From Kamptonema sp. UHCC 0994 (GTDB lineage: Bacteria; Cyanobacteriota; Cyanobacteriia; Cyanobacteriales; Microcoleaceae): a stretch of 64,000 nt of DNA. Positions 60,452 to 64,000 of this stretch are shown here, piece by piece. How positions within the stretch are numbered: position 1 is the stretch's first letter; each line of letters begins with the position of its first letter. The notes beneath the pieces were generated by a model. It was not told the origin of the DNA and searched no databases. It saw only the letters and a program-made list of their open reading frames with translations. A program made the translations under genes and the position numbers. The stretch spans positions 62,001-126,000 of the forward strand of contig NZ_JARFTR010000194.1 in assembly GCF_029167235.1 (NCBI RefSeq), written 5' to 3'.

Positions 60452-60463
60452 GGAGAAATGTGT

Positions 60464-60537
60464 CGGGGCGTAGCGCAGCTTGGTAGCGCACTACTTTGGG
60501 GTAGTAGGGGTCGTGGGTTCAAATCCCGCCGCTCCGA
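60464..60537 (+). tRNA. tRNA-Pro(GGG)
   Basis: The 74-nt cloverleaf has acceptor CGGGGCG/CGCTCCG, D arm GCGCAGCTTGGTAGCGC, anticodon stem CTACT/AGTAG with loop TTGGGGT (anticodon GGG), and T arm GTGGGTTCAAATCCCGC. CCA is not encoded. It carries its own promoter and terminator. The tyrosine integrase begins 132 bp downstream, so its 3' half is a candidate attachment site. Confidence 0.97.
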
Positions 60538-60540
60538 TAG

Positions 60541-60669: not shown

Positions 60670-61698
60670 ATGCCCAAAGGCTCCGTAAATATAGAGGTTT
60701 TCAAGAATCGGCTAAGGCTGGTTTGGTCGTGGCAGGGTAAGCGCTTTTACCTATACATAGGATTGCCGGATTCCCAGGCAAACCGAAAGGTGGCCCAAAT
60801 AAAAGCCCATCAGATTGAGTTGGATATTGCTGGTGGGAATTTCGACTCGTCTTTGGTGAAGTATAAGCCGCCGCAGAAAGAGGAATCGCTAACAGTATTT
60901 GAGCTATTTGCTGAGTTTGTCAAATACAAACAGCGTCAGATTACCCGTCCGACTCTGGCTAAATATGTCGGGTTTCAAAGTTACATAACCCAATTTTTCA
61001 GGGCTTCATCAGCGATCGCAGTGACGGAATCTCTGGCACAAGACTTTCAGGAATGGCTCAGCCAGAGACTAGAGCCGATTACGGTGCGAGAGCGGATTGT
61101 TATGCTCAATGCCTGCTGGAAATGGGCAATTAAGAAAAAATTACTCAGGGAAAACCCCTGGTCAGAAGTCAAATCTCCCGTACCGCCAAAACAGCCTCCT
61201 CAACCTTTCACTAAAGAAGAAATCGCTTATATTTGCGCTAAGTTCCGGTCTGATAACAGACTTCAGCACTACGCTGATTATGTAGAGTTTAAATTCGGTG
61301 TCGGACTTCGCACCGGGGAAGCGGCGGCGCTGTTGTGGCGGCATTGTTCTCCAGAGTGCGATCGCATCTGGATTGGTGAAAGTGTCAGCAATGGTAATCG
61401 CAAAGCTGCTAAACGTAACAAGTCGCGCACTGTGCCGCTTACACCTAAACTTCAGCAACTCCTTAAAAATCGCCGACCGGATTTACCTGAACCCCATCAC
61501 CCCATTTTTACTAGCATCGAGGGGGGACTGATTAATTCTAAGAATTTCTGTCGCCGTTATTGGAAGCCCGCTCTTGCAGAGTTGGGAATCGCTAACATCG
61601 CATCCAGAAATGAAGCAACCAATGTTAAGAACGCTGTGCTGACCATTCATTTGTTTTCTACGCTTGGCTCCCATATTTTTCTCACCTCAATCAATTAA
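60670..61698 (+). pseudogene. Tyrosine-recombinase integrase, C-terminally truncated
   Basis: The frame has 342 residues. An N-terminal arm-binding domain (VNIEVFKNRLRLVWSWQGKRF) and SAM-like core-binding domain (about 75-165) come first. The catalytic domain starts with the first Arg in FGVGLRTGEAAALLW and the Lys region in KRNKSRTVPL. After WKPALAELGI (about residue 305) the sequence stops being integrase-like, so the HxxR, second His and nucleophilic Tyr are all absent. The last 30 residues run over an unrelated gene on the other strand. It is almost certainly inactive. Its position behind tRNA-Pro marks an integration site. Confidence 0.85.
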
Positions 61699-62058
61699 TA
61701 TTTTCTCTAAATCCGATACTTTTATCTCCCCTAACTCCCACTTCTCCCAGATGCTTAACTCCGCTTCTAATAAATCCCACTTCTCCCAAATAAGCAAGTT
61801 TAAAAGCCTCTCTGCATCTCCAATTCTTACTTGAATTGAATCCCAAAAAATATTGCCAACATAAGGTGTCCAGGTTTGGATTGTCAATAAACAAATGCCA
61901 ATCTTAGCGATATTGGCACTCGGTTTTATTTCGCACGGTAATCCTATTTCAGATTCAACATTGATGACATCATCAATCTGAATTCTAGTGCAGCGACCCG
62001 TAAAATTACCATTGTTATCGTTCACGGCGACCATAATATTAACGAATGTTTCAGTCAT
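61687..62058 (-). CDS. Hypothetical protein of the phage-like cassette
   Basis: The protein has 123 residues. The N-terminal half has strand-like wording (MTETFVNIMVAVNDNNGN, CTRIQIDDVINVE). The C-terminal part has a repeated IWEKWxLLE/IWEKWELGE. The start overlaps the previous gene by 8 bp. The 3' end overlaps the truncated integrase end by 12 bp, so the recombination junction lies near. Not recognised. Confidence 0.6.
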   Translation of the reverse strand: MTETFVNIMVAVNDNNGNFTGRCTRIQIDDVINVESEIGLPCEIKPSANIAKIGICLLTIQTWTPYVGNIFWDSIQVRIGDAERLLNLLIWEKWDLLEAELSIWEKWELGEIKVSDLEKILID

Positions 62059-62456: not shown

Positions 62457-62684
62457 TCAAATTCCTTCTTTCATCCAATGCTTGTATAGGTTTTCTCTCA
62501 CCATGCTCTGTCTGAGCACTTCAACTAGATACTCTTGCGCTTGTTCAAGGCTCAATTGTTTAACTTCCTCGCGCAAAACTTGCAGTTTGAATTGTTGCTC
62601 TAACGTTAAACCCGAATCGTTTTTCATAAAAACCTCGCTTAGTAAGTGGGATGAACAAGTCTTGATTGTTTGAATGGTGTTCAT
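62457..62684 (-). CDS. nblA: NblA-family phycobilisome degradation protein
   Basis: The core LTLEQQFKLQVLREEVKQLS and EQAQEYLVEVLRQSMVREN followed by LYKHWMKEGI matches NblA (ELSLEQQF..., S.EQAQEFLV, MM.RE..Y...). NblA is a small two-helix adaptor that binds phycobiliproteins and brings Clp protease to dismantle the light-harvesting antenna. The canonical 56-residue form starts at the ATG at 62627, with AGCGAGG 6 nt upstream. A longer 75-residue form starts at 62684, where ATGA overlaps the oxygenase stop and GAGGTGG gives a second ribosome site. It lies in a phage-like cassette, not beside phycobilisome genes. Confidence 0.92.
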   Translation of the reverse strand: MNTIQTIKTCSSHLLSEVFMKNDSGLTLEQQFKLQVLREEVKQLSLEQAQEYLVEVLRQSMVRENLYKHWMKEGI

Positions 62685-63571
62685 ACTTCCACCTCATTAA
62701 TTGGGGTACAATGGTGAGCATAAACATCCTCTATTGAGCCATCTGAGCAGCTAACTTTGACTCCTGTTAGCCCTGAGCAAGCCGTGTTTTCCTCAGTTAT
62801 TTTTGTAATTTCTCCGACTTTTTTATCAAGAGCGATAAAAACTTTCATTCCTACTGTAGGGTTCCAGTTTATGTCCCAATGATTATGTGTCTTTATGGTA
62901 GTAGATGAAACTGAAAACCTTTTATCCCATCCCTCAATGTCGTCATTGTCATCATCGTAATAAAAGAGTGCGTGGGGCAGAGTCTCAACTGGTTTTTCCG
63001 TCTCGAACAAACTTAATTGTTTGACTTCGGTGCAATTTAAAACCTCCGGCTTGAGATAAAAAAAGCAGATACAACAGCGCTCTTGCTGGACATAATCTAT
63101 GCCGTGCGGTTGCTTGTTATCGAATTGAAAGCAGTCGCCTTCTCCTATTTGAAATTCCTCTAAATTGTCGGCACTCTGGCAATTAGAAATCCGAAAAATG
63201 CAGTTGCCAATGACGTTGATTTGTGCTGCCAAACCTTGACTTTTGCCTTTAATAAGAGCGTAAGCTGGGGCATCGCGATGAACGCTTATGCGAGTTCCTT
63301 TGGGATACCAGAGAATCAAGCCTTGATGAAATCCCGGTAATAGTTTTTCGCCAATTTCTTCAACTGGTTTGGTGATGTTGCTGATAATTTTGCCGACAGG
63401 GGTTGCTGTTGGTTTTTTTCCTAACCCGACGCGAAGGCGGACTGGCATCTCTAATCTACCTTTGGCGTAAGAGGATAAAGAGGGGGCCATTATTTTTTTA
63501 TTTGCCCGACACCAGTTCTGAATTTCTTTTAATCCCGCCCCTTCAATTCGAGGTAGTTTAGTGATGCTCAT
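62681..63571 (-). CDS. 2OG-Fe(II) dioxygenase-like protein (AlkB-like style)
   Basis: The protein has 296 residues from the ATG at 63571, which overlaps the Bro-N stop as ATGA. A double-stranded beta-helix core is suggested by HxD in TRISVHRDAPAYALIKG and the downstream His and Arg in GDCFQFDNKQPHGIDYV and QQERCCICFFYL, the order of Fe and 2-oxoglutarate ligands. It may repair, demethylate or hydroxylate nucleic acid or protein; the substrate is unknown. About 90 C-terminal residues (from FYYDDDNDDIEGWDK) form a separate small domain. The annotation is by motif only. Confidence 0.72.
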   Translation of the reverse strand: MSITKLPRIEGAGLKEIQNWCRANKKIMAPSLSSYAKGRLEMPVRLRVGLGKKPTATPVGKIISNITKPVEEIGEKLLPGFHQGLILWYPKGTRISVHRDAPAYALIKGKSQGLAAQINVIGNCIFRISNCQSADNLEEFQIGEGDCFQFDNKQPHGIDYVQQERCCICFFYLKPEVLNCTEVKQLSLFETEKPVETLPHALFYYDDDNDDIEGWDKRFSVSSTTIKTHNHWDINWNPTVGMKVFIALDKKVGEITKITEENTACSGLTGVKVSCSDGSIEDVYAHHCTPINEVEV

Positions 63572-64000
63572 GCCACCACCTCCGCAAGCTTGATAATGTC
63601 GTGTTCGCACTCTCTGTCCAGATATCGAATGGCTGCGTGATTGGCCAAAAGCATTAGTATTTTTGCTTCTCTATCACCGTTCTGTGAAAGCTTGATTATC
63701 TGTCCCAGTTTGAACGCTGGGTTGGGCGGCTGCTGAATTAAAGCTGGCAGATTGTCAAACAATTGCCCCAATTCTCCCAGGGGCATTTCACCCTGGTAAC
63801 GCCCGTTACGCCTGATACTCGGTAACACTTCCTCCAGCACCCATTCCTGAAAATGCTGTGCGGCGGGCAATTGCGATCGCATAATTAACTGATAAAGTCC
63901 GGGTTCGCTGATGAATTTCGGCTTTGAACCCCGCCGCCGTAAGTCTATCTCGCAGATATACTTAGGGCTAACGTTATCGCTCAGGGTTTGTGAGGGATTT
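63568..64000 (-). CDS. Bro-N phage antirepressor-like protein (5' end outside window)
   Basis: The open frame runs in from beyond 64000 and closes at 63568. Its visible start reads SPKYICEIDLRRRGSKPKFI, SEPGLYQLIMRSQLPAAQHF and QEWVLEEVLPSIRRNGRY, a clear BRO N-terminal domain as in phage antirepressors. A helical tail with NHAAIRYLDRECEHDIIKLA follows. Such proteins regulate lysogeny or bind DNA. Its TGA overlaps the next ATG, so it heads or sits high in the cassette's transcript. Confidence 0.88.
   Translation of the reverse strand, partial: NPSQTLSDNVSPKYICEIDLRRRGSKPKFISEPGLYQLIMRSQLPAAQHFQEWVLEEVLPSIRRNGRYQGEMPLGELGQLFDNLPALIQQPPNPAFKLGQIIKLSQNGDREAKILMLLANHAAIRYLDRECEHDIIKLAEVVA

Follow-up and report, generated by a model that had tools for sequence, protein, structure and literature searches.

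NblA is an adaptor of the Clp protease. Genes encoding it have been reported in the cyanophages LMM01, MaMV-DC, and PaV-LD and in marine phages; they are expressed during infection and are active in other cyanobacteria (PMC9602691). It has been suggested that phage nblA contributes to the supply of amino acids (PMC5780444). Phage-encoded NblA as such is already known, with most discussion so far devoted to lytic cyanophages. In Synechococcus elongatus PCC 7942, pigmentation is reported to be under the control of a resident prophage, via genes other than nblA (PMC9239245). No paper on nblA next to an integrase in integrated prophages was found in a literature search that most subscription journals lay outside.

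The locus described here belongs to a window of 64,000 nucleotides (G000:C111:62001-126000) from a 6.6-Mb genome assembled in 319 contigs. Its nblA gene lies in a prophage of the contractile-tailed type, integrated in tRNA-Pro(GGG) (Table 1). It is likely that this gene is auxiliary to the prophage, remains silent in the lysogen, and serves to degrade the antenna upon induction.

Table 1. Features of the nblA locus and of two related elements (plain numbers are window positions)
Feature	Position	Strand	Basis or remark
tRNA-Pro (GGG), integration target	60463..60538	+	ARAGORN
attL core, 48 bp	60491..60538	+	identical to attR at G000:C54:9335-9382
Tyrosine integrase, truncated	60670..61698	+	Pfam Phage_integrase E 1.1e-6; homology stops at residue 307 (about 61590)
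ORF-A, 123 aa, last gene of operon	61687..62058	-	no family match
ORF-B, 120 aa	62051..62413	-	no family match
nblA	62457..62684	-	75 codons from ATGA-overlap start; Pfam NblA and PHROG 23930 matches
nblA, 56-codon form	62457-62627	-	inner ATG
AlkB-like 2OG-Fe(II) oxygenase	62681..63571	-	likely ATG 63571; GTG 63610 possible
Bro-N antirepressor	63568..64000	-	runs past window end; full gene L004:3568-4104
G012 element (L236/L254/L255)	G012:C103:3877-52340		perfect tRNA-Pro repeats
G068 element (L246/L256/L257)	G068:C42:about 4000-43720		perfect tRNA-Pro repeats

The nblA gene and the prophage that carries it

The open reading frame that a sequence-only reading had named NblA is borne out in coordinates and strand. 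Residues 26-73 of its product match Pfam NblA (PF04485) with an E value of 2.6e-21 and 76.2 bits against a curated cut-off of 25; the match spans profile positions 2-49 of 50 and hence the whole domain. PHROG 23930 is matched with an E value of 3e-18. Because Pfam NblA and solved NblA structures (PDB 3cs5, E 6e-9) both match, a chance reading frame is ruled out. Of the 56- and 75-residue products proposed earlier, both are possible, since GAGG is located 5-7 bases 5' of each of the two ATGs. The start of the host NblA aligns with the 56-residue start, and the 19 extra, in-frame residues of the longer form are without a counterpart among the NblAs aligned here. The 56-residue protein is favored as the NblA unit, although the 75-residue form may also be made.

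The earlier reading had also placed the gene in a phage-like cassette beside a tRNA-Pro and taken it for another NblA of a prophage, and the surroundings agree on both points. Beyond the right end of the window, the contig goes on to encode a terminase large subunit, tail tube, portal, tail sheath, baseplate wedge, and neck proteins, as well as a 1007-aa protein of tape-measure size, an M23/endolysin-type protein, antirepressors, Dcm, and a Mom-like protein. The sheath and tube genes point to a contractile tail. Since terminase, sheath, and portal are only about 24-32% identical to those of the phages in our collection, this phage type is absent from that collection; no relatives of the terminase turned up when viral contigs were scanned.

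The integration site is defined at both ends. The attL core forms the 3' end of tRNA-Pro(GGG) and recurs without a mismatch as attR on another contig of the genome (C54), where it has phage-like genes on its left side and host genes, among them purB, on its right. A genome of the same genus (G002) retains the empty site: its left flank (94% identity) runs via the tRNA into the right flank of C54 (94.8%, 116 bp), beyond which the gene contents of the two differ. Integration was thus directed at the tRNA, the 3' end of which is duplicated at both ends of the insertion, and nblA sits just inside the attL side. Just past its empty tRNA-Pro site, G002 carries a gene pair, named by eye, for an AAA ATPase and an RloB-like protein (L253:2281-4208), which is possibly a defense system. 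C111 contributes 30.0 kb and C54 9.4 kb of prophage sequence. The contig ends inside the prophage (right end of C111, L005; left end of C54, L044) share a 127-bp inverted match resembling the end of an insertion sequence, and the middle of the prophage is therefore incompletely assembled.

Origin of the gene and its maintenance

A search for further chromosomal nblA genes in the host, as suggested by the sequence-only reading, revealed two: one on contig C35 (55 aa, 81% identical to the window NblA over 52 residues) and one on C311 (65 aa, 47%). The C35 gene adjoins phosphate-transport (pst) and phycobilisome-linker-type genes. Phage NblAs of the collection are 41-43% identical to the window protein, and the best of 49 NblA matches in viral contigs reaches about 64%. 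In trees of 46 and 76 rows, the window NblA groups with the C35 type of the same genus (support 95/90 in the smaller tree and 96/65 in the larger one). NblA offers only about 55 alignable columns, and AU tests accordingly did not reject groupings with the NblAs of PaV-LD, LMM01, or the elements described below (p 0.15-0.35). In the larger tree, viral NblAs are spread over at least four positions amid those of hosts, which suggests that viruses captured nblA several times.

Grouping with vertically inherited host NblA had been named in advance as evidence against a phage gene if the neighbors proved to be chromosomal housekeeping genes. The grouping was indeed found, and it is what would be expected of an ordinary chromosomal paralogue that happens to have a tRNA and the remains of a phage close by. 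However, the neighbors on the same contig are viral, the gene lies just inside the attL of a defined insertion for which an empty site exists, and the true chromosomal copies are elsewhere, those of relatives being located beside cpcS/linker-type genes. This explanation is refuted by the paired attL and attR together with the empty site, and it retains next to no probability. Together, the host-type grouping and the viral neighbors argue for a prophage gene captured from the host lineage.

Between the window gene and its C35 counterpart there are 19.5 synonymous and 10.5 non-synonymous differences, giving pN/pS 0.13 (bootstrap 0.05-0.22), dN 0.09, and dS of about 1.6, which is near saturation. 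By comparison, two species of the genus show dS 0.23 between their C35 genes and not a single amino-acid change. From the dS values we infer that the divergence of the phage nblA from the chromosomal one predates the split of these species; the low pN/pS indicates that the phage gene was probably kept under purifying selection for most of its history.

Three candidates were discarded during these comparisons. L008, the sole viral-contig match in a single-protein scan, proved to be a coiled-coil stretch within a longer, unrelated phage protein, and L049 and L050 (77%) are chromosomal copies adjoining a cpcS-type gene rather than phage genes. Tandem nblA copies occur in two genomes of the order (G034:C141:4449-4807 and G041:C1:1966645-1966994).

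Operon context, integrase, and expected expression

The window nblA belongs to a leftward series of about twelve tightly packed genes, of which it is the tenth. The series begins with a 58-aa reading frame (L004:7245-7421) and continues with Mom, a winged-helix-like 74-aa protein, Dcm, three unknown genes, Bro-N, the AlkB-like oxygenase, and nblA, followed, after 43 bp, by ORF-B and ORF-A. Apart from this spacing, the genes overlap or are a few bases apart. The start-stop overlaps noticed earlier are true ATGA overlaps, both between Bro-N and the oxygenase (with the oxygenase start at 63571) and between the oxygenase and nblA. Bro-N is well assigned (PHROG 130, E 7.9e-30; Pfam Bro-N, E 1.3e-22); ORF-A and ORF-B found no family in Pfam or PHROG-type profile searches. 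The label of 2OG-Fe oxygenase has indirect support: H-x-D...H...R is invariant in an alignment with five relatives, and phage relatives match PF13532 weakly, below the cut-off (E 7.5e-5 and 2.5e-4), but the putative oxygenase itself has no Pfam match. Relatives are present in Aphanizomenon and Nodularia phages, and a scan of viral contigs found none; a structure predicted without an alignment (pLDDT 31) was set aside. The Mom-like DNA-modification protein (Pfam Mom, E 6.5e-13) and the C5 cytosine methyltransferase encoded in the same operon (L004:5290-7248, corresponding to C111:127290-129248) are likely to form an anti-restriction pair in this cyanobacterial prophage.

At the start of the operon, an HTH_3/CI-like gene lies on the opposite strand, its likely start being an internal Met near L004:7574. 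The gap contains one 11/12 match to TTGACA-18-TATGAT, located 28 bp upstream of the first gene of the operon; 0.6 such sites are expected in shuffled sequence. Because the operon starts opposite a CI-like repressor gene, nblA is probably made upon induction: this layout indicates that the leftward operon is probably repressor-controlled, with expression on induction as the likeliest reading. The CI-like repressor would keep nblA silent in the lysogen, and upon induction the gene would be read from the leftward operon. As an adaptor of Clp, NblA would then feed phycobiliproteins to degradation, which could release amino acids and cut light absorption while the phage replicates. Antenna degradation by this particular protein is a prediction.

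Alternatively, the resident prophage might express nblA and thereby alter the pigment level of the host or its bleaching under nutrient stress. Prophage cargo genes often sit near the integration module, as nblA does here. A precedent for pigment control by a prophage is reported in S. elongatus PCC 7942, through other genes (PMC9239245). However, the position of nblA as the tenth gene of an operon facing a CI-like repressor suggests repression in the lysogen, and no promoter of its own stands out upstream of nblA; such lysogenic conversion is therefore considered unlikely.

The window integrase is collinear with five homologues as far as residue 307 and lacks the C-terminal catalytic box. The lost stretch, ...RRPYTTRHTLISH...TGH...YENY, comprises the second arginine (Arg-II), the histidine, and the nucleophilic tyrosine, so that the R..H-x-x-R..Y set present in the five homologues is incomplete. 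A motif search of the prophage pieces on C111 and C54 did not find the missing end. Because the catalytic Arg/His/Tyr box is lost, excision by its own integrase is unlikely, and the prophage should not excise by itself unless another recombinase acts. The break may be an assembly error at that point.

The prophage may not be inducible at all, given the broken integrase and the insertion-sequence-like repeats, and it is probably stranded, with nblA itself still intact. The same two features would fit a decaying prophage that no longer uses its nblA, as would a locus in G062 that combines a decayed integrase with a truncated nblA. On the other hand, the nblA reading frame, its overlaps, and its operon neighbors are all open. 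The pN/pS of 0.13 reflects long-term constraint and is uninformative on the time since the integrase was lost. A relic is rather doubtful on this evidence, if a little less so than lysogenic conversion. With a host-derived, selected nblA in an integrated prophage and under a repressor-type operon, it becomes testable in a filamentous cyanobacterium whether the antenna is shut down by temperate phages when they are induced, and the host's own nblA provides an internal control for that question.

Recurrence beside this integrase family and comparison with known systems

The gene neighborhood had been called unusual, but it is less so than claimed because integrase and nblA adjoin in several other elements. 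A search with the integrase led to four genomes of the same family (Microcoleaceae) in which an extra NblA is encoded directly behind a homologous integrase (60-66% identity): G012 (L236), G068 (L246), G076 (L239), and G066 (L237). In each, the tRNA is followed by the integrase gene, then by an oppositely oriented gene for an excisionase-like HTH protein, and then by nblA, which faces the integrase. The target is tRNA-Pro(GGG) in three elements and tRNA-Val in G066; a VapE-like helicase gene precedes nblA in three, and other genes do so in G076. Exact ends were established for G012 (99-bp perfect repeats 48.4 kb apart) and G068 (98-bp repeats 39.6 kb apart), which have much gene content in common. 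No terminase was found among the proteins scanned in these two elements; both encode proteins of the 909-aa and 465-aa types, for which no Pfam family is convincing. ATPases recognized by eye as FtsK/HerA-like are encoded toward the attR end of the window's prophage (L044:3333-4799) and of the G012 element (L255:5505-7295), and a pair of proteins encoded next to them is 39% identical between the two.

The element NblAs cluster in a single clade (100/99) that excludes the window NblA, to which they are about 50% identical; compared with the first element copy, they reach 47-65%. This divergence and the adjacent excisionase-like gene, together with the role of NblA as a Clp adaptor, could mean that element NblAs, above all the divergent copies, bring another protein, such as a repressor or a host defense factor, to Clp. 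However, the two element NblAs examined retain the NblA motif, with Pfam scores far beyond the cut-off, and the window copy shares 81% identity with host NblA, which makes such repurposing very unlikely.

Beyond these elements, 14 of 51 viral nblA loci, belonging to two groups of near relatives, have this integrase family in the retrieved flanks, all in convergent orientation. The distance between the two genes is 1.5-2.4 kb in PaV-LD and its viral-contig relatives and 5-5.5 kb in L167/L168. Among 58 genomic nblA loci with flanks of up to 6 kb, one has this integrase, namely, the G012 element. Related integrases without nblA are found in elements of G148, G144, G127, and G191, and the G062 locus mentioned above (L265, C166), where interrupted integrase and excisionase-like genes lie beside the truncated nblA, is a decaying copy of the module. 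A viral-contig scan with an alignment of element-type NblAs found only distant NblAs, without this integrase. Tentatively, nblA may be a recurring cargo of the integration module in a tRNA-Pro-directed element family of filamentous cyanobacteria; host nblA would have been captured more than once facing this integrase family, which would tie antenna dismantling to prophage induction or excision, beyond lytic infection. For integrated elements, the recurring location of nblA within the integration module appears to be new, and the repeated neighborhood offers a marker for finding more such elements.

Apart from a few genes, the remainder of the four elements (L236, L237, L239, and L246) is unrelated to the window prophage. 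The Planktothrix phage PaV-LD resembles the window in encoding both NblA (ORF022L) and an integrase; the two genes are convergent, with about 1.85 kb between them, and among phages its integrase comes closest to that of the window (45%). However, its NblA is only 43% identical to the window protein, and its nblA neighbors are thymidine kinase and PAPS reductase genes, unlike those of the window. With a genome of 95 kb, PaV-LD was isolated as a free virus and was not seen here as an integrated prophage; the best matches of the window-prophage terminase, sheath, and portal stay below about 32% identity, and PaV-LD is not among them. The Microcystis phages Ma-LMM01, MaMV-DC, and their relatives share the NblA domain with the window but are lytic myoviruses in which nblA lies beside nrdA; their NblAs are 41-43% identical to the window protein, and no such integrase is found within the retrieved flank. 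Chromosomal nblA of the C35 type, in turn, is similar to the window gene in encoding 55-56 residues from the inner ATG, whereas the window gene differs from it in its in-frame extension of 19 codons and its location in a phage operon.
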